Of a stretch of 64,000 nucleotides of DNA, positions 1,039-52,982 are shown piece after piece. Position 1 is the stretch's first letter. Each line of letters opens with the position of its first letter. The stretch covers positions 45,785,682 to 45,849,681 of the forward strand of contig OX344749.2 of NCBI GenBank assembly GCA_947034885.2. The letters run 5' to 3'. The position numbers were made by a program, and so were the translations under genes. The notes beneath the pieces are model-generated. The model did not search any database, had not been told where the DNA came from, and saw only the letters and a program-made list of their open reading frames with translations. Origin of the DNA: Thuidium tamariscinum. Lineage: Eukaryota; Streptophyta; Bryopsida; Hypnales; Thuidiaceae.

Positions 1039-1755
1039 GGGTCATTACAAGAAAGACCTATACTGTTTTTCATCACACTTAAAATAACAAAGTTGTCATC
1101 CACTATAATTTTTGAAGTATGAAACTGATTAATTTGATATTTTTATTGGAAATATAAAAATTAATATTAGTTCTTTATTTTTTCCAAATTTATTTTATAT
1201 TTAAATTTAAATCTAGCTAATTTGTCACACTTTGCAACTTAGAATTTTTTAGTACTAGACTACTAGGGAGTATTCAAATTTAATGATTTAAAGCTAAATT
1301 TTTGTGGTCTATTTCAATACTAGGTGGACATATATCTACCTAACGAAACTAATAAAAACATTATTTTACAACCTCTACATGCTAACTAATAGGGCTCTCT
1401 TGTGCGCATATTTTTAAACCTTTAAGGTAGTTTTAAGATCATTATTTCAATGAAATCTCTTAATTATGAAGTTGTTCTAGAACACCAAATTTCAGTTTTT
1501 CTTAAAATTATTTTTATGTTTTTTATAAATTAAAATCTCAAGGTCTCTATTTTCTTCAAAAACTAGATTACTCTATTTTGTGAATAATTTTTGACGTGCA
1601 TTTTTGTAGGTCTTAAATTTTGGTGACATGCTATTTCTAGTATTGTACTAGTTATCCATCCTTTATTCTATTTTTAAGAAAATCCAAAAGGTCATAATAC
1701 AAGTAGTAAAGAGTCAAATGCTACAAAAAACGGCCAATCTTTTGTGTAATGACCC
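1039..1755. mobile_element. GGGT(C/G)ATTGC-family element, copy 1 (TSD TAAA)
   Basis: Starts GGGTCATTACAAGAAAG and ends with the complement (TGTGTAATGACCC). It is flanked by TAAA at 1035-1038 and 1756-1759. Length is 717 bp, AT-rich, non-coding. It is nested in the piggyBac-like element that ends at 1831. Its counterpart at the same site in copy B (34244-34958) shows that it inserted before the segment was duplicated. Confidence 0.88.
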
Positions 1756-3540
1756 TAAAATTTGCTACTTGTACTAAAATTAGTAGTTTTGAAGCTTTTT
1801 TTGTGAAAATGCAGTAAAAGAACTTTAGGGGTTAAACTAGGGTTTTCAAATAAGTTATAGTAAGCAATTGATATCCTTTTTGTAAGAGTTTATTTGAAAA
1901 TCTTTGAAATTGAAAACTGAAGACAACTTTTATTCTATGTTTTGCCTACTTCCATTGCTTACAAGATGAAACTTGTTATAAATTGTACTTCATCATTTAG
2001 AATTGACTGGATATCAATCTATACAATCTTCAAAAAATATTTAATTTTTTTCAACAAAGTAAAGTTTTTGTTGTCCAGTTTGATATTAAAATCAAGAAGT
2101 AATCTCTAGCTTTTGCAATATTTACCAAAACAATGTAGTAAAAGCTTTGCATACAAATAATGATGAATAGCATCAATCTTCAAAAAATCATGAATTTAGA
2201 ATGAGTGTATCATCACATGTTTTTCAAGCCTCTAAAAGATTGTTTTGAGATTGTTCCCTCAAATTGTTCTTTATAAAGAGCCACTATTGATTTGAATTTT
2301 CAAATTAAAAAATAGATAAACAAATAAAATCTCAAAACTTAAAAAAATAATAATAAACTGAAAATTGATAAAAAAATAATTCTCAAAAAATATTTCAAAA
2401 ACATTTTATAATTAATTAAAAAATAATTTATTAACATGCTATGGAGTTTGGTAGTCTTTCAACCACATCACCATGTTTACTTGGCATTCCCAAAGTCCCC
2501 TATGGAATTTTTAATGTTTCCACAATTCAAGAACTTGTAGTCTTCTGGAGGCCTCAAAAAAGATACAATGTAAAGTTCTCAAGAAGCCCAAAATAGGCTC
2601 CTTGGTCCTTCAAGAATTAATACTAGCTAAACACTCGCTTTAGTACATTTGGTACTAGTTGATCTATCAATGGTGTTGTTTTTTTCACAATTTTTCACAA
2701 CTTTGCTATAGAAAAACATAAGATATTTTCTATAAAGGAAAGATATAATTTACAATTTTTTTACAAATTAGCTAGATTTTTGTTGTATTTTAAACTAGTA
2801 ATCAAATTTTACCAAAGCATCTCATAGGTCTATGTTTGGTTCATTAGATGCCATACCACAAAATATCACCAACTATGACATGAATATACACAAAATAGTG
2901 AAATTAGGCTCCCTTAACAATTAGATTGCTTTACATCAAGAAAATTACTTTACAAGCCATCAAAGTCATTCAACAAATATTTCTAAAAATATTTACATTT
3001 GTATACATGGAGGCTCATGACTCCCAATTATACCAACACCTAATTCAAAAGTAGTATTGATTCTTGTACAAAAACTGAAAATATTCATTTAGTATCAAAT
3101 GTGGAGAAAATTAGTATGAAGCAACCTAATTTTACTATATTGTCACAAAATAGTGAAATTAGTTTACAAAATACAAAGTGCAGATTGTAGATTGAGATGA
3201 AGAATGAGCTTGACAATAAGCTTGTGCTTGAAAACCTCAACTTGTTCAATGATGTATTTCATTGACAAGGTGGAATTTGTGTGCTATTTTTGACATATTC
3301 TGTATCATTTTGATGGAATTCTAGAAGAATATCGCCACTTTAAAGAAATTCGCCATTTCAAGTATATGAGTTGTGTTTTTGGTTATAAAATTTTTTGAAC
3401 TTCTTGATTTTAGACTAGGGTATAAGATATCTTTACCTTGAAGATAGGTAATTTGTTTTGTTTTGTTTGTTGTCTTTGTTTGTTTGTCACATTGAGATCT
3501 CCTGGCCTATGCGTCCCCCATTTGTGTGCTTTGTACCACT

Positions 3541-3985
3541 ACAAAGCTCTTGGCGAGGGGTGGTGGTGCATAGGCTTCATTTTGTGGCCTTTTGACTTGC
3601 GATGTAAAAGCTATGGATTTCTGAGTTATTTTTGGTTCTAAAAAATTAGAAAATTATTTATATTTATATTTTAGTGACAATCTTAGTACCAACAAAAAGC
3701 CCTTGGCAAGGAAAAGTGCTCAAGCTTTGTTTCGTGGTGTTTTGACCTACATTGTGAAAGTTATGGATTTTTGAGTTATTTTTGGTGCTCAAAAATTAAA
3801 AGATTACTTTCACTTATATTTTGGTTGCAATCTTGATATTATTGAAAAGCCCTTAGCAAAGTGGGGTGCACAAAATCCTTTGTGGCATTTGAATCTATGA
3901 TGTGAAAGTTATTGAATTTCAAAGTTTTTTGTGGATTGATAAATTGAAAAATTACTTTTGCTTTGATTTTGATTGTAGCAACGAC
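3541..3985. repeat. Tandem repeat, unit about 145 bp, three copies
   Basis: Three adjacent degenerate units, each containing a form of 'aaagcccttggcaag', 'gtgaaagttatggatttctga' and 'cacttatattttggttgcaat'. Approximate units: 3541-3690, 3691-3840, 3841-3985. The matching place in copy B (about 38425-38720) has only two units, so a unit was gained or lost after duplication. Non-coding. Confidence 0.7.
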
Positions 3986-4279
3986 ACAGGGCACACTAGT
4001 AAGGATGAAACTCCCTTTTGTAGTTGAAACAATAAGATGGAACAATAGTCACAGTGAAGGGTGTTAAATTCAACCAACAAAGGTGGGCCCAACAACCCTA
4101 GCTATCCCAACCGGGTGGATTTTGGGTTCTCCGGGGTAAAAGTGAAAAAACAAGGCCCCTATTTTGTGATGTGTCTAGGATATGTTTTCAAACCTCACCT
4201 TGAGAAATTGAAGTCTTTGATTGCAAATATGAATTCAAAATGTGCAAAAAAATGATTGTCTACAATGACTACAAGATGA

Positions 4280-4497
4280 CACTAGTAGAAACCCTTGTTT
4301 AAAATGTGACAAGGCCTAATTTTTCTTGACGGATTTTGCTAGGCATCAAAAGTAACAACCCTTGTTTTTATATCAGCATTGATGTTGTATTGAATGTTTT
4401 TGATGACATAAAAACATGGGTTGTTACTTTTGATGCCTAGCAAAATCCGTCAAGAAAAATTAGGCCTTATCACATTAAACAAGGGTTTCTACTAGTG
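4280..4497. mobile_element. CACTA-like foldback MITE (TSD TGA)
   Basis: The element begins CACTAGTAGAAACCC and ends with the exact complement GGGTTTCTACTAGTG. Almost its whole length is one inverted repeat around a short centre near 4385. It is flanked by TGA at 4277-4279 and 4498-4500. A 3-bp target duplication and CACTA terminus are the known marks of the CACTA (CMC/EnSpm) superfamily. The site is empty in copy B (39007-39020). A relative lies at 27858-28073. Confidence 0.88.
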
Positions 4498-4904
4498 TGA
4501 CTACAAAATGACTATTTTAGGCATTTTAAAGTCATCTTGCACAGTCATTGTGGACACTCATTTTTTTTAGTGGTTTTCGTAGGTAGGATTTATCGTCCTG
4601 CAATCGCAACTGCTTTGTAATGAATTTGGTGGTTTGGCCGATTTGTGATGAAAGCATCAAATATATACAGCTTATACTTGCATTGGGAATGTCTGCTTTA
4701 ATTTGCAAAAGGCAGCACCACCGTTAATTTACTTGCTTACATGCAATGTGACCGTAATTAAGTTTCAGTGACTTGAAATCCTTGGCTCTACAAAGTTCGC
4801 AATTTGACAGACGGAGATCTTGGGCTGGTTCGTCGCTGATGGACGGTTAATTTTCGAAATTCCTTTCTCTTGGCAAGCATGTATTTCATAAAGAAAATGG
4901 ACTA

Positions 4905-5962: not shown

Positions 5963-6021
5963 CTTGCGGATTGCAAACATGTGACTCTATAGAGAAACTA
6001 CCATTGTAAGAGTTTGGAACT

Positions 6022-8308
6022 TTGCTTACCAAATTTTTTAGCATGCTGTGCAAGAAAAATGGAGAATTATACCCAAGTGGAACCATTATGAATCTCCTGC
6101 AAGTTTTCAATAGGATCCTTTGTCACGCACAAGAAGAACATATAATCTTGATTGAAGTTAGTGAACCTCAATTTAACATTAAAAAACACCCTTGGTTTAT
6201 AGGTGCAACTAAAGTAGTAGTAGATGCTATGAAATGTAGCAAAGATGCAGGAGCCACCAAGGAGAGACGTAAAGTAGACGGCATCAGTTTCCAACAAGAG
6301 CAAATTTTTCTCTCACATCCATGCAACATGGCCGTGCATCCTTTTGGTTGTCAGAAGCAGTTTGCGTGGTTCAGAGTTACACAAACTACTTATTTCTAAC
6401 TTCTCTTTAGAAAAAGATGAAAATGGTGAAGCATTTTTAAGGTGAGTCATAGCATGATGATTTTTTGTGATTAAGTTCCTTCATATCTCATATATTTTTA
6501 CTTGATGTTTCAATTTTTAGGAATATTATTGTCATTTAATATTGTATTGAGTTTGTTGGTGACTGGTTGTAGATATGATGAGCGGTTGTCAAAAATAAAT
6601 AAGCCGTCAATGAAATGCTTTCAATAGGAGCATTTTCGTCCCCCGATTTCATCTTTCAATAGAGATGTTATAGAAACATTTTCTACCTTACTAGCACACA
6701 TGCCAGAAGAGTCCAAGAATGTTGGCCCTCTTTTTTCTGTCACCAATTCAAAATGCTAGATCGGTTATTTGGTATAAAAAAGGTATCTCTGTAGGTGAGA
6801 GGGGTGAATGCAAGTGAAAGACTTGTACTATTTGGCGTCACACTTTGAGTGACGGAGTTGTCATGAGCTATAACTTTTGAAGCATAATTCTTTGAACTTG
6901 AAATTTTTATTGAAGATGACTAACTTGATAGTTATCAAAACCCTTATTTTTCAGAAATTTTCAAAAATCATTTTATATTTTAATTTTAATTTCTCTAATT
7001 TGTCACACTTTGCGGTTTAGGGGTTTTTAGTACTGGGGAGTACTTTAAATTAATAATTTAGAGCTGAGATTTCTAGGGTCTATTCCTACACTAAGTAGGC
7101 ATGTTTCCACCGAAGGAAATTTAAAAAATCATTATTCTCTTTCCTCTACATGTGTGCTAACAGGCCTCCCTTGCGCGCACATTTTTGAACAATCAAGATA
7201 GTTTTCGGATCATTATTTTGGTGAAATACCTTTAACCTAAAGTCTTCCCAAATGGCCAATTTTTAGTTTTAAGAAAAATTACTTTCCCTATTTTTTACAA
7301 ATTAAAATGTGAAAATATAGTAAAAGTTACAATTTTCACGAAATTCAACACTTTTCTAGTTCTCCTACTTAGAGAATTTTTCTATGCTTTTCCTTCCTAG
7401 GGTATCTTCTTCTTAAGGGTATATACATCAAACATATTTTTCACTTTAAAAAAAAATTGATTTACTATTTATACAGTACTCCCAAAGAAAAAAGTGAGTA
7501 CTGTGCAAAATGCTACGCTTTGCCGCAGGTCTTTTTTGCAATGACCCAGAGTACAATTAGAAGGTGGATTAAGGTATGATGGCTGATGCAGGAATAGAAG
7601 GGGATTTTACTAATAAGAGTGGTCGAGTTACAACAATTACACGCATGTCAATTGCTCAAGTTCCAAGAGACATCATAACAAGAGTCACTGGTCACCATAA
7701 TGAGAAAACTCTCGCGAGGTATGATCAGAGTGTTTCTTTAAAGCAGAAGGTAGCACAAGCTTTAAGTTGTCAACCATACGACACCATTACAGGAGCAATA
7801 TTGAGTTTTAATGATCATTATGAGAAAGAGCTCGAAGGTTGGCATCGCAAGCAAATTTTGAATCCAAGTAACTAGAGTGAACTTCCAAGTAGTAGACCAA
7901 ATGCACAAGGTAAATATTTTATTCATCAATATTTGATTAGATCAAGCCTCCTATATCTTCAGTCATTATTTTATAAGGTAAACATGTTTTGAATTGGTGA
8001 ATTTGATTGCATGTAATCTTGTGTGATTTTCAGATATTCAAGAAACTGTATATGGTGGACGAAGAGATTCAATTGAACGTGAAGTCCGAAGTCTGGATGA
8101 TGATTTTTGGGAGACTCTCGATTTGGATCTCCTTGAGAGGACTTTAGAAGCCTCAAGAAAGTCTAAGTTATTCAAAGAGAAGTGGAAAAAATCGATGCTT
8201 GAGCACTCAATTAAACATCAAGCATATGGAATCCCTGAAATTTCAAGTTCAATCACTCCTGATTTCAGAATGTCTCCAGGTCCATCAATAATTGCAAGTC
8301 CGCAATAA
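6022..8308 (+). pseudogene. Crypton/KIAA1958-like tyrosine recombinase, broken by a transposon
   Basis: The N-terminal part (6022-6399) reads FFSMLCKKNGELYPSGTI, then FNIKKHPWF and a basic stretch before ISFQQEQIF. This is the order seen in KIAA1958/ZMYM/DUF3504-type proteins related to Crypton recombinases. A catalytic part follows at 6764-6801 and 7548-7875: VIWYKKGISVGE, STIRRWIK, GDFTNKSGRVTTITRM, then VTGHHNEKTLARYDQ. In tyrosine recombinases these supply the HxxR arginine (KSGR here, with the His position read as Lys), the second His (GHH) and the Tyr nucleophile (ARYDQ). A 746-bp element sits between GISVGE and STIRRWIK. Further damage: a frame slip at about 7574-7577 and stops near 6400-6640 and 6760. 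After a donor-like GTAAAT at 7910 and an acceptor at 8031-8033, an exon-like frame (DIQETVYGGRRD...) runs to 8308. A domesticated gene or a dead element are both possible. Confidence 0.75.
6802..7547. mobile_element. GGGT(C/G)ATTGC-family element inside the recombinase gene (TSD AGAG)
   Basis: Starts GGGTGAATGCAAG and ends TTTTTTGCAATGACCC; flanked by AGAG at 6798-6801 and 7548-7551. Length 746 bp, no coding frame. Removing it with one AGAG copy joins the host frame into VIWYKKGISVGESTIRRWIK. This independently fixes its ends and its 4-bp target duplication. Confidence 0.9.
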
Positions 8309-9460: not shown

Positions 9461-9462
9461 TG

Positions 9463-15217: not shown

Positions 15218-15439
15218 CATGGTTGTCATAGTGGACGGACGTCCGGTTCGCCCGTCCGGTAGAGCTCTCGCCTGTCCGATGTGGTCAACACATAGTTGAC
15301 TTTTTAAAAGGTAAAAAAAATCCACGTGGATTTATATTCATGCCACCTAGAGACCACGGGCGTGGACGCAACTCAATAGGGCGGGGACGCGAGAAAGGGC
15401 AGGGACACTAGGGTGTAGACCTAAAAATGACAAGGTACG

Positions 15440-15866
15440 GACGTCAACTTTTTTCTACTTTTGCAATTGGAGTTTTGAGAATTTGGAGGCATGCAATATA
15501 CCATTGGAAAGGTATTCAAAATACCTTTCTAATGGTATATTACACGCCTCCAAACTCTCCAAACTCCAATCGCAAATTGGAAAACAAATCTACTACCAAA
15601 ATCCACTATGCAGAGAGTCCACGAGCAGGTGCGGACGCAAGGCCGGGTGGGGACGTCAGGGCGGGGATGCAAGCCTAGGCGGGGACGCAACGACGGGTAC
15701 GGACGCTAGGGCACAAACGTCAACTTCTTTCTGCTTTTGCAATTGGAGTTTTGGGAATCTGGGGGCGTGTAATATACCATTGGAAAGGTATTTTGAATAC
15801 CTTTCCAATGATATATTACACGCCCCCAGATTCTCAAAAATCCAATCGCAAATTGAAAAACAAATC
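15440..15866. repeat. Two hairpin modules in the left arm
   Basis: Two palindromes, at about 15455-15595 and 15733-15862. Each has the core CATTGGAAAGGTATT..AATACCTTTC (A/C)AATG flanked by arms reading GCAATTGGAGTTTTG and its complement CAAACTCCAATCGC. They are separated by a GC-rich minisatellite (ggggacg repeats, about 15610-15715). The right arm has the counterparts at about 18455-18580 and 18735-18860. Confidence 0.8.
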
Positions 15867-18454
15867 TTTTGCCAACATCCACAACGCAGTAAATCCGAGG
15901 CAGGGCGCGGACACAAGGCAGGGCGCGGACATCAGGGCACAGATGCGAGGCAGGGCAGGACATCAAGGTGTTGGCGGGACAACAAACTGCATGGGTATTT
16001 TCAAATGGCCTTGGCCTTGGGATTCCTCTTCTTCACTAAACCCGCCCCCCCCAAAAGGCCACATTTAATTACTGGCAGCTCATTTGTGCACAATTGACTA
16101 GATCTCCAAGTACATGGAGGTCAAATGGGCACATTAAGAACTCCACCTACCAACTACAACGTGCACAAGGGTGGAGACCTTTGAGAGCTAAGTGCATTTC
16201 TCTCTCTTGTGGCCTAACTCCTCAAATCTTCTTTTTCACAAGACCTTGGATTCTTCATTCTTGAATTCTTCATTCTTGAATTGAATCTTTGGGAGCTTAG
16301 AGGATAAAATAGTTCTTTTGTTTGTATTTTTCTTCTTCAATTTGATTGTTGAAGGCTTCGGGTGGGGTTATTAGAAGGTGACATAGCCCTTTCTATTTAT
16401 TTATACCAAAGCTTGGATATGTAGGTTATTTTTTTACTTTCTCTTATAGTAGTTTTACTTAATTATTTATTGTGTAAATTCTAAAGAAGGGATTTAGTGA
16501 AGGGTGCATCTTTTTTCATTTCTTTTTTAAGTAATTTGGATGAATGGTTTTTTTCCCTTACCATTTCTTTATTTTACTTTAGAAAGTGTGAAGAATGAAT
16601 TAATAATAGTGGAGACCCTCGTTCTTCATTTATTTTAGGGCGGTGTACAATTAAGTTCCCCTAGGGATTGTTCATTTAGTTATTGAATGCATGAAGGAGG
16701 GATTTGGAAGAGAGGAGGAGGTGACTTTGTTGTATTTCTTAAAATCTTGAAGTAGAGTTTTTATTTCTTGAAGAATTTTATTTTAGATGAATGTCTTAAA
16801 AAATGATACAATGGAGACCAAGGGCACTTTTTTCCCATTTTTCTTTCCATGTAGCATTTATATTGTTGAAGGGAATTTAGAATTTAATTTTTTAATGATT
16901 GAATGAAGGATTAATTACACAATTTTATTATGTCAATCCTTGAAGGTCACAATGGATATTATTTTTTTCCAAATTTTTGAAGGAAAGTCTTAGATACTCT
17001 AAAAAAAAATTCAATACTTCTATTCTTTCTTCTCAATAAAATTCAATTAAAAGTTGAACCTAGCTTCAACAAAACACAACATTTCTCACAATTGCAATAA
17101 AGAAGACAAAACTTAAGTAAATCTAATATTTTCCATTTATCCTATTCGTGCAACTAATTGTATAGTTATCTAGAGCATGAAATAACATTGATTCCTACTA
17201 TACAAAGAAATAAATTTAAATGAATAAAATGCCTCTACTTTAGTTCCATTCTTTTTATACTCACAATTAGATGTTGAACCAAGCTTAGGCAACATATAAT
17301 CTTTCTTTCCATTCAAAAAAAATTTAAATGAATTCAATTCGTACACTTCTTTTCCATTCCTACTCTTAATTGTTAAACCAAACTTTGGCAAGAACAACCT
17401 TAACTTCTATTGTAGATAAATAAAATAAAATATTTCAAGTGCCTCTCGTCTTGTTCCTTCTTTCCTATACCAACAATAACTTGAATCAAGCAAAGCTAGG
17501 TATATCCTTCACCACCAATGGATAAAAATATAGAAGAAACCTTCACGGGCCTTTTCAATGGACTTGGGGGAATGAGATTCTTCTTCTCCCTAAAATCAAG
17601 AAATTACTTTTATGTTGTGAGGTCATATTTGTACTAAAGACCAAATCTAGAAGTACATGATGTTGAAATGGCAACATTTAATACTTCACCTACCTCAATC
17701 TTTAAAAGAATTGAAGAAGGCATGCATTCTTAATTTTGGGGCCTACCTTTCTATGTCTTGTTTCTTTCCAAACACCTTGCCACTTCAATCTTCAACTAAA
17801 TACCAAAACTTTTAAAGGGACACTTTGAAAAAAACCATTCATCCAAGTTACTTAAAAAAGCAATGAAAAAAGACGTGCCCTTCACTAAATCGCTTCTTTA
17901 GAATTTACACAATAAATAATTAAGTAAAACTACTATAAGAGAAAGTAAAAAAATAACCTACATATCCAAGCTTTGGTATAAATAAATAGAAAGGGCTACG
18001 TCACCCTCTAATAACCCCACCCAAAGCCTTCAACAATCAAATTGAAGAAGAAAAATACAAACAAAAGAACTATTTTATCCTCCAAGCTCCCAAAGATTCA
18101 ATTCAAGAATGAAGAATCCAAGGTCTTGTGAAAAAGAAGATTTGAGGAGTTAGGCTACAAGAGAGAGAAATGCACTTAGCTCTCAAAGGCCTCCACCCTT
18201 GAGCAAGTTGTAGTTGGTAGGTGGAGTTCTTAATGTGCCCATTTGACCTCCATGTACTTGGAGATCTAGTCAATTGTGCACAAATGAGCTGCCAGTAATT
18301 AAATGTGGCCTTTTGGGGGGGCAGGTTTAGTGAAGAGGAAGAATCCCAAGGCCAAGGCCATTTGAAAACACCCATGCAGTTTGTTGTCCCGCCAGCACCC
18401 TCGCGTCTGCGCCCTGCCTCGGATTTACTACATTGTGAATGTTGGCAGAAGATT

Positions 18455-29112: not shown

Positions 29113-29242
29113 AGCACACCGTAGCGATCTAGGGTAATAGGGGGGTCAGTCCTCCGTTCCTCATTGCTTGGGAGTTACGTATCTCCAAACTGGCTAATTA
29201 GCACCAGATTCTTACCATGAAAATCTGCGTGTTATAGATACA

Positions 29243-34958: not shown

Positions 34959-36122
34959 TAAAATTTTCTATTTGTACTAAAATTAGTAGTTTTGAAGCTT
35001 TTTTTTGTGAAAATGTAGTAAAAAAACTTTAGGGGTTAAACTAGGGTTTTCAAATAAGTTATAGTAAGCAATTGATATCCTTTTTGTAAAAATTTATTTG
35101 AAAATCTTTGAAATTGAAAACTGAAGACAACTTTTATTCTATGTTTTGCCTACTTCCATTGCTTACAAAATGAAACTTGTTATAAATTGTACTTCATCAT
35201 TTAGAATTGACTGGATATCAATCTATACAATCTTCAAAAAATATTTAATTTTTTTAACAAAGTAAAGTTTTTGTTGTCTAGTTTGATATTAAAATCAAGA
35301 AGTAATCTCTAGCTTTTGCAATATTTACCAAAACAATGTAGTAAAGCTTTGCATACAAATAATGATGAGTAGCATCAATCTTCAAAAAATCATGAATTTA
35401 GAATGAGTGTATCATCACATGTTTTTTAAGCCTCTAAAAGATTGTTTTGAGATTGTTCCCTCAAATTGTTCTTTATATAGAGCCACTGTTGGTTTGAATT
35501 TTCAAATTAAAAAACAGATAAGCAAATAAAATCTCAAAACTAAGTAAAAAAATAATGATGAACTGAAAATTTCTCAAAAAATATTTCTCAAAAAATATTT
35601 CAAATTTTTTTTTATAATTTATTAAAAAATAATTTATTAACATGATGTGGTGTGGTAGTCTTTCAACCACATCACCATGTTTACTTGGCATTCTCAAAGT
35701 CCCCTATGGAATTTTTAATGTTATCACAATTCAAGAACTTGTAGTCTTCTGGAGGCCTCAAAAAAGATACAATGTAAAGTTCTCAAGAAGCCCGAAGTAG
35801 GCTCCTTGGTCCTTTAAAAGTTAATACTAGCTAAACACTCACTTTAGTACATTTGGTACTAGTTGATCTATCAATGGTGTTGTTTTTTCACAATTTTTCA
35901 CAACTTTGCTATAGAAAAAATATAAGATATTTTCTATAAAAGAAAGATATAATTTACAATCTTTTTTACAAATTAGATAGATTTTTATTGTATTTTAAAC
36001 TAGCAGTCAAATTTTACCAAAGCATCTCATAGGTCTATGTTTGGTTCATTAGATGCCATACTACAAAATATCACCAACTATGACATGAATATACACAAAA
36101 TAGTGAAATTAGGCTCCCTTAA

Positions 36123-37046
36123 CCCCTAAAGGACCAACATGCATTTTTTGGGTGTATAGAAATTTTGGGCAGGTACGTGTGATTGGAAATTTGAATATTT
36201 TGGGCTGAAATTTTAATAGAAGGTGGGAGCGAGGAATATCGTCATGTATACCAAATTTCATGACATTTGGAAATATGAGTCAAAAGTTATGGCCTAATAT
36301 GTTGCTTTTTTTCGTAATTGGGCAGTCCGGGCAGATCAGAAAAAATCACTTTTTTCAAAAATAAAAATTTTAAACTAGTTTTCTACATTTATATACAAGT
36401 GGAAAGCTTTGAATCATTCCATTTCAATCAAAGAGTCAAAAGTTATAAGGTTTTTTTGTTTGCGGGCAGTTATGGATTCTCTACTATTAAAAAAACTTTG
36501 AAGTCATTTATTTCACTCAATTTTCAATATTTTTGGAAAAAAATAAAATCCTAGGATTGAGATTGATTGTTACAACATTACAACCATTGGGATTGGCATT
36601 TTTTAATTCCACAATTAAATTCTTAACAATTTAGTGTTATGAATCATTCTCTACTTCTTTCTACTTACTATTTTTTTCCTATATGTTGTACAATTCCAAA
36701 TGATATGAAATTTTTTGAGCATATACCCATCTTGTTTAGGAAACTGAATTCAAAGAAGAACCACCATTTTCAACATTGTTTCTTTGAGAAGTGAGCATGT
36801 GAAGTGCAGCAGCCCGGTTTTTTGCAGGATTGAAAAAATGGTTTTGGTGAATTTGAATGCTTATATCTTTTGATCCACATGGTGGAATTTTTTGAAATTT
36901 TTACCACATGTTGTTTAGACATTATACTACGAGATCCTATGGTTACATATGTCAAAAATTGTTTTTTTCAAGAAAATTGGTAGTTGTACTAGAAATGGCA
37001 GTTTTGGAGCATTTTTGGTGAATACATAGTCATGGAACTTTAGGGG
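36123..37046. mobile_element. piggyBac-like TTAA element, un-nested, 924 bp
   Basis: Starts CCCCTAAAGGACCAACATGC and ends ATGGAACTTTAGGGG; TTAA at 36119-36122 and 37047-37050. Copy A has a single TTAA at 2914-2917 in identical flanks, so the ends are exact. The interior is homologous to the element at 33083-35035 without its nested parts. Non-coding. Confidence 0.93.
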
Positions 37047-37450
37047 TTAACAATTAGATTGCTTTACATCAAGAAAATTACTTTACAAGCCATCAAAGTC
37101 ATTCAACAAATATTTCTAAAATATTTACATTTGTATACATGGAGGCTCATGACTCCCAATTATACCAACACCTAATTCAAAAGTAGTATTGATTCTTGTA
37201 CAAAAACTGAAAATATTCATTTAGTATCAAATGTGGAGAAAATTAGTATGAAGCAACCTAATTTTACTATATTGTCACAAAATAGTAAAATTAGTTTACA
37301 AAATACAAAGTGCAGATTGTAGATTGAGATTGAGATGAAGAATGAGCTTGACAATAAGCTTGTGCTTGAAAACCTCAACTTGTTCGATGATGTATTTCAT
37401 TGACAAGGTGGAATTTGTGTGCCATTTTTGACATAATCTGTATTATTTTG

Positions 37451-38183
37451 GGGTGATTGCAAGAAAGACTGGTACTATTTTGCATCACACTTTGAATGTC
37501 GGAGTTGTTATTGATTATAACTTTTAAAGTATGAACCATATTAACTTGAAATTTTGACTAAAGATTTTTGATGTGACAACAATCAAAATCCTTATTTTCC
37601 AGAAATTTTCAAAAATCATTTTATAATTAAATTTCAATTAAGCTAATTTATCACACATTGCGGTTTAGGGGTTTCCAGTACTGGGGAGCATCCAAAATTA
37701 ATGATCTAAAGCTGAAATTTCTGTGGCCTATTTCCATACTAGGTAGGCATGTTTCTACTAAAGGAAATCTCAAAAATCATTATTCTCTTTCCTCTACATG
37801 TGTGCAAACAGGCCTCCCTTGCGCGCATACTTTTGAACATTTAAGATGGTTTTGAGATCATTCTTTTGGTGAAATCTCTTCATCATAAATTTCTCCCAAA
37901 TTGACAATTTTTAGTTTTTTTTAAAAAAAAATTTCCTATTTAAAAAAAATTAAAATGTCAAAGTACCTATTTTCATGAAAATTTGCACTTTTCTAGTTCT
38001 CCTACTTAGAGAATTTTTCTACACTTTTCCTTCCTAGGGTACCTTCTTCTTAGAGGTATATACATAAAACATATTTTTTACATTTTTTAAAAATTGTTTT
38101 TCTAATTATAAAGTACTCCCGAAAATTTCAGCAGTACTGTGGAAAACGCTACATAAATCGATCGGTCTTTCTTGCAATGACCC
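37451..38183. mobile_element. GGGT(C/G)ATTGC-family element present only in copy B (TSD TTTG)
   Basis: 733 bp, starts GGGTGATTGCAAGAAAG, ends CTTTCTTGCAATGACCC; TTTG at 37447-37450 and 38184-38187. The empty site is at 3309-3312 in copy A. No coding frame. Confidence 0.93.
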
Positions 38184-39411
38184 TTTGATGGAATTCTAGA
38201 GGAATATCGCCATTTTAAAGAAATTCACCATTTCAAGTGTATGAGTTGTGTTTTTGCCTTTTTGGTTATAAAAATTTCTGAACGTCTTGATTTTAGACTA
38301 GGGTATAAGATATCTATACCTTGAAGATAGGTAATTTGTTTTGTTTTGTTTGTTGTCTTTGTTTGTTTGTCACATTGAGATCTCCTGGCCTATGCGTCTT
38401 CCATTTGCGTGCTTTGTACCACTACAAAGCTCTTGGCAAGGGGTGGTGGTGCAAGGCTTCATTTTGTGGCCTTTTGACCTACAATGTAAAAGCTATGGAT
38501 TTCTAAGTTATTTTTGGTGCTCAATTTAAAGTAAAATATTACTTTCACTTATATTTTGGTTGCAATCTTGATATTATTGAAAAGCCCTTAGCAAAGTGGG
38601 GTGCACAGACTTTGTTTTGTGGCATTTGAATCTATGGTGTGAAAGTTATTGAATTTCAAAGTTTTTTGTGGATTGATAAATTGAAAAATTACTTTTGCTT
38701 TGATTTTGATTGTGGCAACGACACAGGGCACACTAGTAAGGATGAAACTCCCTTTTGTAGTTGAAACAATAAGATGGGACAATAGTCACAGTGAAGGGTG
38801 TTACATTCAACCAACAAAGGTGGACCCAACAGCCCTAGATGTCTTAGCCGGGTGGATTTTGGGTTCTCCGGGGTAAAAGTGAAAAACAAGGCCCCTATTT
38901 TGTGATGTGTCTAGGATATGTTTTCAAACCTCACCTTGAGAAATTGAAGTCTTTGATTGCAAATATGAATTCAAAATTTGCAAAAAAATGAGTGTCCATA
39001 ATGACTACAAGATGACTGCAAAATGACTATTTTAGGTATTTAAAAGTCATCTTACAGTCATTGTGGACACTCATTTTGTTTTAGTGGTTTTCGTAGGTAG
39101 GATTTACCGTCCTGCAATCGCAGCTGCTTTGTGATGAGTTTGGTGGTTTGGCCGATCTGTGATGAAAGCATCAAATATATACAGCTTGTACTTGCATGGG
39201 AATGTCTGCTTTAATTTGCAAAAGGCAGCACCACCGTTAATTTACTTGCTTACATGCAATATGACCGTAATTAAGTTTCAGTGACTTGAAATCCTCTGCT
39301 CTGCAAAGTTCGCAATTTGACAGACGGAGATCGTGGGCTGGTTCGTCGCTGATGGACGGTTAATTCTCGAAATTCCTTTCTCTTGGCAAACAGGAATTTC
39401 ATGAAGAAAAT

Positions 39412-40061: not shown

Positions 40062-41021
40062 TCAGATTGCGGTTCGTTGCTTGAGCATCTCCAAAGACAC
40101 ATCCCACAGACGAGCGGCTTCGTCGGGGTCGATTGCGTAGGGCCGGACCCCGTACTCAGGAGAATGCAGTCCGACACCGGTAACAATTCCCGCTTCGTTG
40201 TTGTCCTCGAAGTAGCGCCCGCGGACGCCTTCCACCAGGGGCGACGCAGCCAACAGCACTTGTGTGGACGCGCCGCGGTCCACGGTTCTCCAATCCATGG
40301 CGTCCAAGTGTTTCTGCAGTTCCGGGCTGGGTTTTATGTGCCGCATCAAGTTGGTGCGAATGACACCAGGATGGCAAGCGTTCGCGGTGATGCCATCCTT
40401 GGCCCACCGCTTGCTCGCTTCCACGGCGAACAGCACATTCGCCGTCTTCGACTGCCCGTAAGCAGTAACGTCCTCGTAGCTCCGATTCGCGAAGTGGATA
40501 TCGTCGAACACAATTGGAGACACCTTGTGGCCGGTGGAGCTCACGGAGACGATGCGTGCGTTCCCCGCTGCTGCGAGGGCATCATGGAGGCCGAGGGCGA
40601 GCTCAAAGTGGCCCAGGTGGTTGGTGGCGAATTGCTGCTCCCAGCCCTCGGGGGTGAGTGTGAGCTTCGGGAGCGCGACCCCAGCGTTGTTCACCAGAAT
40701 GTGCAGCGGGCCTTTCCATGCTTTCGTGAACGCCGTGATGGATGCGTGGCTGTTGAGGTCGAGCGGCGCGACGAACACGTTCCTGTTGCCCGTCTCGGAG
40801 GTGATGTCTGTGGCGATTAGCTTGCCAGCTTCGGTGTCGCGGACTGCGAGTGTGACCTCGGCGCCTGCGGAAGCGAGCGCGCGAGCAGTCTCAATGCCGA
40901 GGCCTGAGGAGGCTCCCGTGACGATGGCGCGTTTGCCTGTGAGGTCGACATCTGCAAGCACATCGTCCGTGGTGGAGGTGGCCGTGAAGGGCGTCGTAAT
41001 GCGAGTTCTAGGGGAAGCCAT
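40062..41021 (-). CDS. Short-chain dehydrogenase/reductase, retinol-dehydrogenase/Tic32-like
   Basis: Predicted to transfer hydride between NAD(P)H and a carbonyl or alcohol; the substrate is unknown. From the chosen start (MASPRTRITT, ATG at 41019-41021) it has 319 residues. Motifs: cofactor loop TGASSGLG at 35-42, NNAG at 111-114, Asn134 in ATNHLG, catalytic Ser at 161-162 (VSVSSTG), Tyr188 and Lys192 in YGQSK. Arg61 after the second strand favours NADP. The frame is open 26 residues further up (41099), but that part is not family-like. Length fits the Tic32/RDH11-14/WWOX-like group. No intron interrupts it and it is clearly more GC-rich than its surroundings. STTDDVLADVDLTGKRAIVT resembles the start of bacterial members at least as closely as plant Tic32, so acquisition from a microbe is possible but not shown. 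It looks intact. Confidence 0.93.
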   Translation of the reverse strand: MASPRTRITTPFTATSTTDDVLADVDLTGKRAIVTGASSGLGIETARALASAGAEVTLAVRDTEAGKLIATDITSETGNRNVFVAPLDLNSHASITAFTKAWKGPLHILVNNAGVALPKLTLTPEGWEQQFATNHLGHFELALGLHDALAAAGNARIVSVSSTGHKVSPIVFDDIHFANRSYEDVTAYGQSKTANVLFAVEASKRWAKDGITANACHPGVIRTNLMRHIKPSPELQKHLDAMDWRTVDRGASTQVLLAASPLVEGVRGRYFEDNNEAGIVTGVGLHSPEYGVRPYAIDPDEAARLWDVSLEMLKQRTAI

Positions 41022-41099
41022 GGCTGGATCTTCTCTAAATTTGCAGCTATGGCGTGGACAACTGCTCTCTAAGTGCAGAAGATCGATGCCAATTCGCAC

Positions 41100-43761: not shown

Positions 43762-44840
43762 GGGTCATTGCAAGAAACACCGACCACTTTTGTAGCGCTT
43801 ACAAAATTTGTTCCTATCCAATGCTATAACTTTTGATTGATGAATCCATTGCCCAAACCAAAAAAACTATTTCTAGAGTTTTTTATTGCAATCATATTTT
43901 ATATTTTTCAGAATTTTAAAAAAATCATTTTATATTTAAAAGTTATTTTTGTTAATTTGTCACATTTTCAAGATTAGGGGTTTTTTATATTATTGATTGG
44001 TTTAAATTAATGATTTTTGGTTGAAATTTCTGTGGTATGTTTTTATAGTAGGTAGACATGTCTCTACTAAAGGGAATCTAAAAAAACCTTATTTCATGAC
44101 CTCTACATTAGTGCAAACAGACCTCCCTTGCACGCACACTTCCAAACATTAGAAATGCTTTTGAACTCATTTTCTTAGTCAAACCTCATCACCAAAAAGT
44201 CTTCTCAAATGGCCAATTTTTAGTTTTGTTCAAAATTTTTTTTCCTATTTTTTACAAATTAAAACATCAATGTATGTATTTTCTTTACTAGAATTCAATG
44301 TCTAAGATGATGTCCTAGAAAATACATACATTGACGTTTTAATTTGTAAAAAATAGGAAAAAAAATTTGAACAGAACTAAAAATTGGCCATTTGAGAAGA
44401 CTTTTTGGTGATGAGGTTTGACTAAGAAAATGAGTTCAAAAGCATTTCTAATGTTTGGAAGTGTACTCGCAAGGGAGGTCTGTTTGCACTAATGTAGAGG
44501 TCATGAAATAAGTTTTTTTTAGATGCCCTTTAGTAGAGACATGTCTACCTACTATAAAAACATACCACAGAAATTTCAACCAAAAATCATTAATTTAAAC
44601 CAATCAATAGTATAAAAAACCCCTAATCTTGAAAGTGTGACAAATTAACAAAAATAACTTTTAAATATAAAATGATTTTTTTAAAATTCTGAAAAATATA
44701 AAATATGATTGCAATCAATAATTCTAGAAACAGTTTTTTTTGGTTTGGGCAATGGATTCATCAATCAAAAGTTATAGCATTGGATAAGAACAAATTTTGC
44801 AAAGAGCTACAAAAGTGGTCGGTGTTTCTTGCAATGACCC
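43762..44840. mobile_element. Palindromic GGGT(C/G)ATTGC-family derivative (TSD ACAT)
   Basis: A 1079-bp near-perfect inverted repeat: arms about 43762-44285 and 44315-44840 with a loop of about 30 bases. It starts GGGTCATTGCAAGAAACACC and ends with the exact complement, flanked by ACAT at 43758-43761 and 44841-44844. Each arm matches the left two thirds of the 715-746-bp family members; the right third is missing. Non-coding. Confidence 0.92.
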
Positions 44841-45300: not shown

Positions 45301-46535
45301 GGGTGATTGCAAGAAACACCCACCGATTTGGTTGCGTTTTACAATAGTACTCATGAATTTTTTGGGAGTACTATAAAATTAGAAAACTAATTAAATTTTT
45401 AAAAAAAAATGAATAATGTATACACCTCTAAAATGAAGGTTTTCACCAAAGGAAATGGATAGAAAAATTCTCTAAGTAGGAGAACTTGAAAAGTGCCAAA
45501 TCTCGAGAAAAGGTGATTACAAGAAACACTTGTTGATTTTGTTGTATTTGGCTGATTTTTTTAGTAATACTTTAAAATCAAAAAATTAATTTTTAAAAAA
45601 TTAAAAAAAATATGATTTATGTTTACACCTTTAAGATGAAGGTGCACATGGAAGGAATTGCACAAAAAAATTGTCTAAATAGGAGAACTAGAAAAGTGCT
45701 AAGTCCCAAGAAAATACATATCTTGATAATTTAATTAAGAAAAATTATATAAATTATATAAATTCAAAAAATCAAAACTGGCCATTTGCAAAAACTTTAC
45801 GGAAATAGTCATTCATCAAAAAAATCACTAAAATAATACTTTATAGGTTTCAAAATGTAAGCAAAAAGAAGTTCACTTTGTGGACTTCCACATCACATAA
45901 TAATAACTTTTTTCAAAATCCCTCACATGGAGAGTTGTAAGTACCATCTCATCCAAATTTCATCTCAAAATCACTAAAAGAAGGTACTACTTAGTGACTA
46001 AAAACCCCAACCTACTAAGTGTGACATTCAATTGGGGTCTATTTTCGGATAGTAAATTATTTTCAAAAATTAGGAAAAAATTAGAAAAGGTGTATGATAG
46101 TTAATGAGTACCTTTTCTATAAATCTTGAGTCATTTGAAGCCAAAACATAGAAGTTATGGCCAAAAAACAAATCAGCACACTAGGTGTGATAGAAAATAG
46201 GACGAGTGTTTCTTGCAATTGCTTGAAAATAGGTACTTTGATGTTTTAATTAGGGAAAAATAGTAAAAAAAAGTAAATACAAAAAAAATGACCATTTGCA
46301 ACAACTTTATGGAGATGGTCATTCATTAAAAAACCTACCAAAATCATATTTTATGTGTTTCAAAATACAAGTAGAAAGAAGTTCACTTTGTAGACCTTCA
46401 CACAACATAAAATTAATTATTTTTGAAAATACTTCTTTGAAAATCTAGAAGTCTACTAGAAGACCATCTCATCCAAATTTCATCTCAAAATCATTAAAAA
46501 AAAGGTACTCCGTAGTACTAAAAAACCCTAAGGGC
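45301..46535. mobile_element. GGGT(C/G)ATTGC-family element, truncated and nested into
   Basis: Left end GGGTGATTGCAAGAAACACC at 45301. It is interrupted at 45511-46224 by another member, then resumes (ATAGGTACTTTGATGTTTTA) to about 46535, where homology ends without a terminal repeat. Non-coding. Confidence 0.75.
45511..46224. mobile_element. Inner GGGT(C/G)ATTGC-family element (TSD GAAA)
   Basis: 714 bp, ends AGGTGATTACAAGAAACAC and GTGTTTCTTGCAATTGCTT, flanked by GAAA at 45507-45510 and 46225-46228. The interior, read in reverse, matches the subfamily of 50309-51362 (CTGATTTGTTTTTTGGCCAT). Confidence 0.85.
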
Positions 46536-47333: not shown

Positions 47334-49193
47334 TCACATCGCAAGATCTTTCTTCGCAAGACCTGGCGGTGGTGGTGGTGGTTGTAGAGGCTTGACGATG
47401 TGCTTGATGTAGTTAGGATTGGTGATGATGTGTTTGAAGTAGTTTGGATTAATGTCGTCGTCATCGTCCGTTTCGGATCGGCAGCCATGGCCAGTGAAGA
47501 GCATAATCGGCTCCATTGAAGAAGAAGTTCCAGTGGATGTGCGGCTCAAATTGTTACGGAGCGGTATGTTTAAACGACCCCTAAATGTTAAATCTTGGGC
47601 ACCTAACGTTTCGGTGTCGCGTTTCGTTTCGGATCCGTCGAGGTCTCTATCGAGAGAATTTGAAGAAGAGTCGGATCGAGGAATGCTCAAGGTCGTGTAC
47701 CCGCTTTCAATTGTGGAGGTTCGGCTCAGATTTCTCTCGCCGTTGCCGGCGCGCTCTGGGTTTGCATTCTCATGACCAAATTGCAGCTGACCTTCTTGCT
47801 TAAGAGGATACGTCGGGGACGTTTTGTCGACACCATAGCTGTTGCAAGGCTCTCGCTGCGTACGGCTTGCCTTTCCACCTGCAGAAGTACTCATGTGGTG
47901 CTCTTCGTACTTCTGTGTGCCCCATCTTGAGCTTGGAGTCTGTGGAGTCGTCGTCGGATAATCGTAATGCAAAAAATCCTCAACATGCCTGTCTTGCGAC
48001 ACAGAAGCTTGTGGCAAGGGAGAGTACACACGCGGCACCACGGGCTGGCTAAAATCCCGCCGAGAGTTGGCTTTCTCAGAGAATCGAGTTGTAGATGTGA
48101 ATGGTCTCGATGGAGAAGAATCAGCATGTTGTAAGCCGTGCGAGTTTCGGAAGCTCTGGCTGTAAATTGGTATGTAACGTCGAGGTGTGGACAGATGGCT
48201 TAAACTCTCCTCGGACCGCTTGTCAACGCGTGTGCGAATTGGTTTGAAGTCTTTCCCGCTTGAGATTGCTTCTGGAAGAGGCACTTGGCTTGCTTCCGAG
48301 GACAGGTGATGGCTGCGCGTTTGGCTGAAGCTTGGTCGACTCGTAGGGTAAATTACACTCTTCGGGATATGTTCATGTCCCTGGATATGGCTCCGGCTAT
48401 GGCGTCGTGGAGTGGTAACGACATCGTACTTCGGTGCTGTGCCATATGCATTATACCTTGTGTGCAGGCTCCCTTGGAATTCGTATTGTCTCGACAGATC
48501 TGATTTGTTTGCAAACGGCGAAGGGCCGCTGTATGCTGGAGTTTTATGGTTGCTGAGCTTCTTCTGGGGAGATTCCTGGCCTCTGTAATAGCCACGCTTG
48601 ATCAAGGTCGGGTTTGAAGAGATTTGTCTTGCTGCAGCCGACTGGCACGAGTGAAACGCATCTCCACGCACCGTTACATTCTTGCACCCAAGTCCTGGAA
48701 GGAACCGTCTCTGTTTCGTGACATGCTTTGTCGACTTGATTTGGAGGACGCTGCCGCTGCCGCCTCTCGCCATAATCAGGGAAGCTTTTCCTGCAGCTAC
48801 CCTGCTGGTGTGTTTCTCGTCAACCTCCAGGATTAGGGCCTTCCAAAACTCTTCACACTCAGAACAACAGACCGGCGCACGTAGATATTCACCAGCTGGA
48901 GGTGCTTTGTTTGAGTTCCCATCATACTCGTACGCTTCCGTGTGGAGTTCTCTGCGTGAAGAAGGTGCTCTTTGTTTGCCATTGGAGGTTGACGAACTGG
49001 TCAGCCTGGTGTGCTCGTTCGCTCCTCCGTTGGGCTGCATTTGGCAAGAGAGACACATCATAAGAAATTTGCGGCCAATTTGTTCCTGGTGGTGCAAAAG
49101 ACATAATTCAGACGTTGCAGCTCTCCATCGAAGCTCAATGGACTGAACGTCTTCAAATGGAAGAACAAAATCTCTAGCATTCAGGTGTTTCAC
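47334..49193 (-). CDS. Orphan 619-residue, Ser/Arg-rich protein
   Basis: A single uninterrupted frame with GC content well above its surroundings, which argues for a real exon. Residues 1-45 look folded (FVLPFEDVQSIELRW). A Cys-rich patch follows near residue 110 (VCCSECEEFWKALILEVDEK), then a Gly/Ser segment (ARGGSGSVLQIKS). Most of 200-540 is Ser/Thr/Arg/Tyr-rich and probably disordered. The C-terminus has an acidic run (TDDDDDINPNYFKHI), an imperfect repeat (NPNYFKHIIT/NPNYIKHIVK) and polyproline (PPPPPPGLAKK). No enzyme domain is recognised. Start at 49191-49193 is the first ATG in frame; a start further in cannot be excluded, and more exons may exist upstream. The polyproline-acidic tail suggests a scaffold or binding partner, which is speculation. 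Confidence 0.6.
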   Translation of the reverse strand: MKHLNARDFVLPFEDVQSIELRWRAATSELCLLHHQEQIGRKFLMMCLSCQMQPNGGANEHTRLTSSSTSNGKQRAPSSRRELHTEAYEYDGNSNKAPPAGEYLRAPVCCSECEEFWKALILEVDEKHTSRVAAGKASLIMARGGSGSVLQIKSTKHVTKQRRFLPGLGCKNVTVRGDAFHSCQSAAARQISSNPTLIKRGYYRGQESPQKKLSNHKTPAYSGPSPFANKSDLSRQYEFQGSLHTRYNAYGTAPKYDVVTTPRRHSRSHIQGHEHIPKSVIYPTSRPSFSQTRSHHLSSEASQVPLPEAISSGKDFKPIRTRVDKRSEESLSHLSTPRRYIPIYSQSFRNSHGLQHADSSPSRPFTSTTRFSEKANSRRDFSQPVVPRVYSPLPQASVSQDRHVEDFLHYDYPTTTPQTPSSRWGTQKYEEHHMSTSAGGKASRTQREPCNSYGVDKTSPTYPLKQEGQLQFGHENANPERAGNGERNLSRTSTIESGYTTLSIPRSDSSSNSLDRDLDGSETKRDTETLGAQDLTFRGRLNIPLRNNLSRTSTGTSSSMEPIMLFTGHGCRSETDDDDDINPNYFKHIITNPNYIKHIVKPLQPPPPPPGLAKKDLAM

Positions 49194-50305
49194 GAGCGCG
49201 AGATGTTTGTCTCACCATGTTTTTTGCTGTTTGTGTCGTTGGCATTGTTTTTGAAGCAGAGCCAGCCACTCCGTCCTGCTTCTTATTCAATTTCCGCTAG
49301 GATTGTCTTTAAAGAAGTCTGAAACTCTCTCCCATGAGCTCAACATATTAACTCAACCTCGCCGTCGTTCATGCAGGAGAAGGTACGTTTCTGACCGTGA
49401 CATTCTGACTCCGACTCAAGATCACTAACATCCAGTCTCTATTAGTCGACTAGACAATGAGGAGATCATCATCAACCATCATGAAGGCTTTGACAGCATG
49501 TTCTAGCTAGCAAGGAGGCTATTTACAGAATCGAGATGGTTTCCTTCGTGGTGACTCCGTATTGCAATTTCTTTGGGACTCAATTGGTCTTGACTATGCG
49601 AAATATTCAAGGCTATGAAGAAAATCTAGGCTTGAGCCAGCAACGTTCTCAAGAAGAGCAGCTGTTATCTGCTTAGTCTCGACTTCCAGGCGTTCTATGA
49701 CTTCTATCTCTTATACAATGCCAAGGGTTTCCTACTGTATATCACAACGTTCAAGACGGAGACGAATTTGCCGTAGATATGGGTGGCAAGCTATGAGGTC
49801 TGAGTCAATGTGGCCACCAACTCGCTGGAATAGTCTGTCTGTTGCTCGACTGTCAAAGGTGACAATTTCTGGTGATTCGCAACCAAACATGTTGAGTGCA
49901 CATGACATTTGAACTAGATTTCAATTGAAATTCAAGATCATCCATCCATGACCAATATCTGAAGTGGTTTTTAATCCCAACAACAAATTCGTGCAATGAG
50001 GGACCAAGTCCACATTCTGTTATTTGTTCAGGATATTTCTAGCTGGGTCTGCCTGTTCTCAAGCTGTGAACTCAAGCAGCTGCAGTTTCACTAGCTCAAT
50101 TGAGTCAGTAAATCCCGCTAACCCTTATTTTTTAAGAGGAACAGGCCTGGCTCCTATACATCTTGTGCAAGCACAATGCAGAGCTTAACGAGTCACACAA
50201 GTGAGTCTACAAAATTGGGCTTACAGTCTACCATATATCTGAGCTAGTCTTAATCACTATCATCCCAACAAAGTAATTCAGCAAAAGCAAAAGTCACATT
50301 AGAGA
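49194..50305. other. Upstream region of the orphan gene
   Basis: No supported gene. About 49690-49915 has a mildly GC-rich block with open frames on both strands that I could not assign. Confidence 0.4.
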
Positions 50306-50308
50306 TTA

Positions 50309-51362
50309 GGGTGAATGCAAGAAACACTTGTACTATTTTTCGTCACAACCTAAGTGCTGATCTGTTTTTTGGCCATAACTTTTGCATTTTTGTTTGAAAT
50401 GACTTAAGATTTCTAGAGAAGGTACTCATGACTATCATATACCTTACATAATTTTTTCATAATTTTCAAAAATAGTTTAACACTAAAATAGTACTAGTGA
50501 TTAAATGTCACAAATGACAATTTGGAGGTTTTTAGTACTAAGGAGTACCTTTTTTTTAATGATTTTGAGATGGAATTTGGATGCGATGGTCTTCTAATAG
50601 ACTTATAGCTCTCCACGTGAGGGATTTTGAAAAAATTTATTTTTACATGGTGTGGAAGTCTACAAAGTGAGCTTCTTTTTGCTTGAAGTTTTAAACATAT
50701 AAAATTTTATTTTGGTGATTTTTTTGGTGAATGACCATCTCCATGGAGTTGTTGCAAATGGACACTTTTTATTTTTTGTATTTATTTGTTTTTACTATTT
50801 TTACCGAATTAAAACATGAAGGTATGTATTTTCTGGAGGTTTGGCTCTTTTTAAATTCTCCTACTTAGAGAATTCTTCTATCAATTTCCTTTGACAAAAA
50901 CCTTCATCTTAGAGGTGTATAGTATACATTATTCATATTTTTCAAATTCTTTTCAAATTAATTTTCTAATTTTAAAGTACTTCAAAAAAAGTCATGAGTA
51001 ATGTAGTAAAGCGCAACGAATAGTACAGATGGTGAATTTTGTTAAATGACGATATGCCATTAATTTGGCAGTTTTTACAATTCTGACCATGAGGTCCAAA
51101 ATCTAAACTTGTCATACATTTTTGAAATCTATATGTGTTGTAGATGACTGAAATCTATACTAGTCCAAGATGTTTCGGACCGTGAGGTCCGAACTGTAAA
51201 AACATTATAGATTTTGTAAATCTATGTATGTCTTAGATGTCTGAAAATCTATACCAATTCTAAATATTAGCTTTTAGTTCTGACCGTGCGGTCCGAAAAA
51301 TGGCATAGTGAATATCGCCATTTTTTTGAAATTCGCCATACAGGTGTTTCTTGCATTCACCC
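50309..51362. mobile_element. GGGT(C/G)ATTGC-family element with nested MITE (TSD ATTA/ATCA)
   Basis: Starts GGGTGAATGCAAGAAACAC and ends GTGTTTCTTGCATTCACCC. Flanks ATTA (50305-50308) and ATCA (51363-51366) differ by one base. Total 1054 bp; taking out the nested MITE (51029-51339) and a 4-bp duplicate leaves 739 bp, the family length. Non-coding. Confidence 0.85.
51029..51339. mobile_element. Nested MITE with GACCGTGAGGTCC palindromes
   Basis: Starts ATGGTGAATTTTGTTAAATG and ends with a near complement (ATCGCCATTTTTTTGAAATT, then CGCCAT). ACAG occurs at 51025-51028 and 51340-51343. Inside, three units carry the palindromic box GACC(A/G)TG(A/C)GGTCC at about 51096, 51178 and 51285. A relative of about 163 bp lies at 54745-54907. 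Confidence 0.7.
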
Positions 51363-51539
51363 ATCATTGCCTTGGGATTGAACTTTTAGACAAAAAAATG
51401 AGTGTATATGGGGCCTCGAATGCTGAGAGCCTGAGAGAGTTGTCTTCAATGCAGTCTTGTGCGTCGAGTGACGGGTGCTTAGAAAGTTCATTCTTTTGCT
51501 TACTGGATAAGTAACAGAATCACAGGTTTTTTACAGTCG

Positions 51540-52011
51540 AGGTTTGCCGTGATTTTGATGCATCTTCCCGGATTCCAAACCTTAGCCAATGGTACCATTC
51601 CGAAGTTGTCTTTGCTGAGATTTCTCAGCTACTACCGGTGTCAGTTAGTAGTACAGGATTGGATTGGACATTTATTGTTGAAGAGCTGATACGGGAATTG
51701 TTGTTGGTGCGTTAAAGTGGCATATAATTAAGTACATGAATTAAGGAGACAAGCTAGCGTACCACCAAAGGTAAAATTGGGCAGGACGACGTACCGGTGC
51801 TTGGTTTCTAACAAGATGGGCTTCGACCACAGTCATCACACACTCCACAAGTTTGCTCACGAAAATCTGCAGCAAGCCCCATGCTTAGAGCCTCAAGTAC
51901 CGAAGAGATGCGACTAGCAAACAATCCATGGATCGAGTGACGCAATTTGTATCCCCACTTCACGAAGTCACTACACTGTTGTACACCCCTTACTACAAGT
52001 CTCCATGACAA
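51540..52011. other. Exon-like blocks, unassigned
   Basis: On the plus strand 51537-51716 is open (VCRDFDASSRIPNLSQWYHS, ending EELIRELLLVR). On the minus strand 51808-52011 is open and ends in a Cys cluster (TCGVCDDCGRSPSC), loosely like the Cys-rich end of wall-associated kinase galacturonan-binding modules. Neither is convincing. Confidence 0.25.
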
Positions 52012-52249
52012 AGTCCTAGACGCTTCACGTGTAATCTCTCAAATTAAAGCTACGTTGATCACAATTTCGTTCTAGATTGGGGTGCTGATTTGCAGGCATA
52101 CAGTCTGCAATGCACAGTTTACCTGCAAGAGAATGTGATTCGCTTGTGACTAGAAACTGTATAAAACCCTCGTTCCATAAATCTACACTCTGAACCCTTT
52201 ATCGCAGTCAGTAGATCTATTTAAAAAAATTTGCATGCTTTGTGTTATA

Positions 52250-52982
52250 GGGTCATTGCAAGAAACGCCGGTCCTATTCTCCGTCACAATGGGAGTGACG
52301 TCATTCTTTTCTGCTATAACTTTTGAATCTAAAGATCTAATAATATGAAATAATTATTGGACCTCTCTAACTTGATGATTTTCACATCCCTTATTTTTCA
52401 GAAATTAAAAAAAATCATTTTATATTTAAAAATCATTTTTCTTAATTTGTCACAAACAGAGGTTTAGGGGTTTTTACTACGTTCGGAGTCCCCAAATTTA
52501 ATGATCTAAAGCTGAAATTTTCATGGTGCATTTGCATAGTAGGAAAGCATCTTCATACCAAAGGGAATCTAAAAATACATTATTTTATGTCCTCCACATA
52601 TATGCAAACAGCACTCCCATTGCACACAATTTCTGAACATTGATGATGGTACTAAGATAATTTTTTTGGTAAAATCTCATCACCATCAACTCTACCCAAA
52701 TGGCCAATTTTTAGATTTGAGAAAAATAACTTTTCCTATTTTTTACAAATTAAAATCTAAATATGCCCATTTTCATGAGTTTTGGCACTTTTCTAATTCT
52801 CCTACTTAAAGAATTTTCCAAATCTTTTCCTTCATAGGGAACCTTCTTCTTTAAGGTATATGCATTTTACATATTTTTCATGTTTTTTTAAAATTGTTTT
52901 TCTAATTAAATAGTACTCCTGAAAAAAAAAGCATCCAAATCCAAAATGCTACAAAAACGGACGCCCTTTCTTGCAATGACCC
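52250..52982. mobile_element. GGGT(C/G)ATTGC-family element (TSD TATA)
   Basis: 733 bp, starts GGGTCATTGCAAGAAACGCC and ends CCCTTTCTTGCAATGACCC, flanked by TATA at 52246-52249 and 52983-52986. Same internal order as 37451-38183. No coding frame. Confidence 0.92.

Follow-up and report, generated by a model that had tools for sequence, protein, structure and literature searches.

Nine copies of one transposon family and their surroundings

The window, the whole 64 kb stretch of DNA that was analysed, is taken to be moss nuclear DNA; a 625-aa frame at 47337-49211 has seven protein matches that include Ceratodon purpureus (49%) and Physcomitrium patens (31%), the best two standing at 58% and 51%. 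It carries nine copies of one transposon family, numbered from left to right as follows:

e1, 1039-1755, plus strand: intact, 717 bp, flanked by TAAA on both sides; lies within a TTAA-flanked element
e2, 6802-7547, plus strand: intact, 746 bp, flanked by AGAG on both sides
e3, 34244-34958, plus strand: intact, 715 bp, TAAA; the insertion of e1, copied by segmental duplication
e4, 37451-38183, plus strand: intact, 733 bp, TTTG at 37447-37450 and 38184-38187
e5, 43762-44840, no strand assigned: palindromic, 1079 bp, two half-elements, flanked by ACAT on both sides
e6, 45301-46535, minus strand: host copy split by e7, left ~215 bp missing
e7, 45511-46224, minus strand: guest nested in e6, 714 bp, with decayed tips and with GAAA at 45507-45510 and 46225-46228
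e8, 50309-51362, plus strand: 1054 bp, family sequence to ~51021, then a foreign tail and a proper tip; ATTA/ATCA
e9, 52250-52982, plus strand: intact, 733 bp, flanked by TATA on both sides

The first-pass annotation had placed nine copies at these positions, and all nine intervals proved real when both ends of each were checked and the window was scanned with a family profile derived from seven members, which gave 13 matches at E ≤ 0.01, all 13 inside the nine copies. Its statement that e1 and e3 are the same insertion is also borne out; the two lie in one duplicated segment of 94% identity, and the nine copies therefore represent eight insertion events. Summed as intervals, with e7 counted within e6, the family spans 7,012 bp or ~11% of the window; the copy number of nine in 64 kb refers to the one window studied. 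The copies are AT-rich (GC 0.25-0.32), and the intact ones (e1, e2, e3, e4, e7 and e9) are 714-746 bp long, all under 800 bp, the usual limit for MITEs, which e5 and e8 exceed. Copy e6 had been described as truncated; its left ~215 bp are indeed absent, and it is more exactly the host of the nested guest e7, both being on the minus strand.

Several other features share the window. The segmental duplication pairs 1-4898 with 33201-39411 at ~84-94% identity, depending on the piece, and each copy has private insertions. Another non-autonomous family, which has CCCCTAAA tips and is flanked by TTAA, is present at 36123-37046, at 33083-35035 (with e3 nested inside) and as a part ending at 1831; a single TTAA at 2914-2917 marks the precise empty site of the copy at 36123, and by its TTAA this family is presumably piggyBac-, Kolobok- or Sola3-like. 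A short CACTAGTAGAAA-ended element lies at 4280-4497, with TGA on both sides, and at 27859-28073, and appears to be absent from the paralogous segment near 39005-39016. There are also a large inverted repeat (15409-16555 and 17827-18907, arms 90% identical and ~1.3 kb apart), a palindrome at 23466-23663 whose 98-bp arms are 100% complementary and 2 bp apart, and inverted arms of 581 bp and 94% identity at 29242-30651 that overlap a 177-bp tandem array. An uninterrupted SDR dehydrogenase frame occupies 40065-41048 on the minus strand and matches Ceratodon at 71-75%; among the best 120 of its 8000 matches, those with names comprise two from Ceratodon, the rest being bacterial at ~62-68%, which could reflect an old gene transfer.

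Tips, target duplications and empty sites

Fourteen independent tips have GGGTSATTGCAAGAAA in common and, read inward, give the consensus GGGT(C/G)ATTGCAAGAAA(C/G)ACC, in which positions 3, 6, 8, 10, 11 and 16 are invariant; this set omits e3 (the duplicate of e1), the end that e6 has lost and the second tip of the palindromic e5. The ends had previously been said to carry GGGT(C/G)A... and its complement, and these 14 tips agree with that, those of e7 being decayed (AGGTGATTACAAG and AAGCAATTGCAAG). Within the window, ends that differ from GGGTSATTGCAAGAAA at no more than one position are confined to family copies, and outside the family there is one site with two mismatches, at 43493. Five Markov shuffles searched on both strands contained no site with fewer than two mismatches, 2 sites with two and 11 with three. 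When the two ends were aligned with one another in eight copies, pairing began at base 1 in six and at base 6 in e7; the best local end-to-end match of e2, whose left tip carries a 2-base insertion, lies elsewhere than at its tips. The tips thus form the terminal inverted repeats of a non-autonomous TIR transposon. Matches of the 20-base tip pattern to two viral contigs (L001 and L002) are attributed to chance: both contigs are 66% GC and match with the same 24 bases, and no second end with ≤3 mismatches is present in the stretch searched.

The tips are more conserved than the interior in most of 15 pairs of copies: over the left 16 bases, 11-15 of 16 positions are identical (13/14, 12/14, 14/14 and 8/10 in gapped pairs, where fewer positions are compared) against an interior identity of 0.66-0.82. 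Pairs that include the decayed e7 have little or no such excess (for e7 and e8 the left tip matches at 11/16 and the interior at 0.80). In the other pairs the excess would fit selection through a transposase acting in trans.

Identical 4-bp flanks were found in six of the seven independent two-ended events, and the seventh (e8, ATTA/ATCA) matches at three of four positions. Flanks of 1 bp and 2 bp were identical in one and two of the seven events, respectively, and flanks of 3 bp and of every length from 5 to 10 bp in none; a 4-bp match arises by chance at 0.6% of random window positions. The target duplication thus has the fixed length that characterizes such transposons, and the targets (TAAA, AGAG, TTTG, ACAT, GAAA, ATTA/ATCA and TATA) have no evident common motif.

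The element ends and the duplication length are proven by two precise empty sites inside the window, those of e4 and e7; a third, for e1/e3, is approximate. The two that lie in paralogous sequence are:

3309-3312, plus strand: empty site of e4, a single TTTG in a paralogous segment; the joined flanks align gap-free at the junction
36968-36976, plus strand: approximate empty site for e1/e3, where a paralog (~70%) of the TTAA-flanked element around them has small gaps close to the junction

The segment 2914-3827 is paralogous to 37047-38712, and when e4 and one TTTG are taken out, the paralogs align through the junction with no gap (92% identity over 895 aligned positions). Taking out e7 and one GAAA likewise lets e6 align gap-free with e8 through the junction. 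Sequence near 36972 aligns through the e1/e3 site (66% overall, 70% in the left part) and agrees with the other two, less precisely. With six identical duplications, a single mismatch in the seventh and these empty sites, the 4-bp duplications of the first-pass annotation are confirmed.

Structural variants, coding content and age

Copy e5 is a family member, and it is a palindrome of two ~520-bp half-elements rather than an ordinary copy; its arms are 97% identical over 521 aligned positions when gaps are not counted and 94% when they are. Which type of end does it have? Its tip carries GTAGC at 31-35, and GTAGC is found at 31-36 in the right ends of e1, e2, e4 and e9 (four of seven right ends), the remaining right ends having GTTGC (e6), GTTGT (e7) or neither (e8); all six left ends carry TCACA at 35-41. 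The e5 tips give two weak opposite-strand profile matches of 18.2 and 15.7 bits. Pairwise global scores are mixed (24 for the best right end, 17 for the best left end, 9.5-19 for the other right ends) and agree only partly. The signature and the profile matches suggest that e5 has right-type tips at both ends; if so, its own ACAT duplication suggests that an element with two ends of the right type can transpose.

Copy e8 belongs to the family up to ~51021 and again at its terminal tip, the ~340 bp between being without family similarity, so that the earlier listing of 50309-51362 as a family copy holds for its two outer parts. The foreign tail at 51022-51362 contains repeated GACCGTGAGGTCC-like motifs in direct and inverted units of ~124 bp.

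None of the copies had been thought to code for protein, and no coding signal was detected. The eight copies examined (all but e6) have longest open stretches of 39-78 aa, lengths that 32 or more of 100 shuffles reached in each case; Pfam gave a single match, below the cut-off (E 0.15), for five such stretches taken from three copies; and codon-position substitution bias had no consistent excess over 45 pairs, single pairs being uneven. The eight copies thus lack coding capacity, as non-autonomous TIR transposons do, and no autonomous member or transposase of the family was seen in the window. Rfam gave no match in the window at the gathering threshold and none in 50300-53000 at E ≤ 0.1. The RNA fold of e9 has a z of -3.5 (20 shuffles), and e9 was rejected as an RNA gene because the outermost pairs of the fold are the inverted tips.

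By K2P distance the copies form three groups (e1/e3; e2/e4/e9/e5; e6/e7/e8), separated by 0.33-0.49 and with internal distances of 0.22-0.36 in the second and 0.18-0.27 in the third. Copies e1 and e3 differ by 0.033 and their flanks by 0.057. The flanks of e4 differ from those of the paralog that lacks it by 0.086, and its nearest kin in the window, e2, lies at 0.224. Copy e4 therefore appears to be a fairly young copy of an old, diverged lineage that inserted after the segment was duplicated; alternatively, it may have been excised precisely from the paralog. A young copy from a distant lineage is as expected if several source lineages were kept mobile in trans. This feature of e4, the palindromic e5 and the tail-replaced e8 are new relative to the first reading.

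Probable mobilization and superfamily

We are confident that the family consists of non-autonomous TIR DNA transposons, large MITEs in a moss nuclear genome that would be moved in trans via 4-bp staggered cuts. The enzyme, a transposase of DDE/D type supplied by an element elsewhere, would bind to the conserved tips of 16-20 bp (GGGTSATTGCAAGAAASACC), excise the copy and ligate it into a target whose strands are cleaved with a 4-bp offset, and gap repair would then produce the 4-bp duplication. Movement in trans and the transposase type are what we infer from these features, and an autonomous partner elsewhere is a sound prediction. The family is filed here only as a non-autonomous TIR transposon.

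That the copies spread by segmental duplication only, without transposition, is hardly credible: e1 and e3 do share one 94%-identical duplicated segment, but the 4-mers next to the remaining copies differ, and precise empty sites exist for e4 and e7. Given transposition, which superfamily supplies the enzyme? The duplication lengths of Mutator, CACTA, hAT and PIF/Harbinger fit 4 bp poorly. Tips starting with GGG are common in PIF/Harbinger, and the tip here begins GGG, but that superfamily duplicates 3 bp, a length at which none of the seven events matched; membership in it is rejected, and a driver from a known superfamily that departs from its typical duplication length, such as PIF/Harbinger or another relative, is improbable. 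Kolobok targets TTAA, and it and piggyBac are rejected, TTAA being in none of the seven duplications. Chapaev (now within EnSpm/CMC), which the first-pass annotation had named, has 4-bp duplications and CAC-type termini, which the GGGT tips do not match.

In published descriptions, PIF/Harbinger is given ANT and TNA targets (PMC12477816) and piggyBac a TTAA target (PMC5199201). Ginger has 4-bp duplications and TGTNR termini, with Ginger1 targeting CCGG/CCGT (PMC2836005), and is rejected since the tips here start GGGT. Seven plant TIR superfamilies are given in PMC10741241, with Sola, present in Physcomitrella, having 4-bp duplications and very variable termini, and Physcomitrella Sola1 is recorded in PMC9033089. 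The first-pass annotation could not place the family. That stands in so far as Sola is not demonstrated, but Sola and Ginger both have 4-bp duplications and the Ginger termini do not fit, so Sola leads among plant superfamilies with this length. Its 4-bp target duplication was found here, and we give it roughly an even chance of being the right superfamily, judged by duplication length and the Physcomitrella report. It is rather doubtful that the driver represents a superfamily still to be described, with GGGTSATTGCAAGAAA (GGGT) tips and unspecific targets of 4 bp, that has long maintained the mobility of many separately evolving passenger lineages in mosses; the tip sequence has no relevant match in the literature text search and the duplications lack a common motif, but 4-bp duplications and variable termini are already known from Sola, which has been reported in moss (PMC10741241, PMC9033089).

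We regard this as a new family of a known kind, its kinship with described families being judged by text search. Of the tip strings, one was matched in two papers, both unrelated by title and abstract, and no description of the family was recognised among the papers listed in the literature text searches. The tip and the duplication length are thereby well defined for a family of moss DNA transposons that matched no described one in these searches, and the transposase can be sought directly with the tips. DNA transposons are reported to make up 23.68% of the genome of the moss Pohlia nutans (PMC9247546), and such families may therefore matter in mosses. The Repbase rule for non-autonomous elements, as given in PMC4455052, uses the same duplication length plus aligned positions 1-11, and insect MITEs assigned to Sola1-3 are described in PMC5199201.

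How does the family compare with known systems? It resembles plant and insect MITEs in being <800 bp when intact, AT-rich, bounded by inverted tips and without coding signal, although two variants exceed 800 bp. It is like Chapaev in its 4-bp duplications and unlike it in having GGGT rather than CAC-type termini. Ginger1 and Ginger2 share the 4-bp duplications but differ in their TGTNR termini and, for Ginger1, its CCGG/CCGT targets (PMC2836005). Sola, including Sola1 of Physcomitrella, is similar in its 4-bp duplications, variable termini and report in moss (PMC10741241, PMC9033089), whereas described Sola elements are mostly 2-9 kb long with a DDD transposase, of which none was seen in the window, the likeness being one of description.
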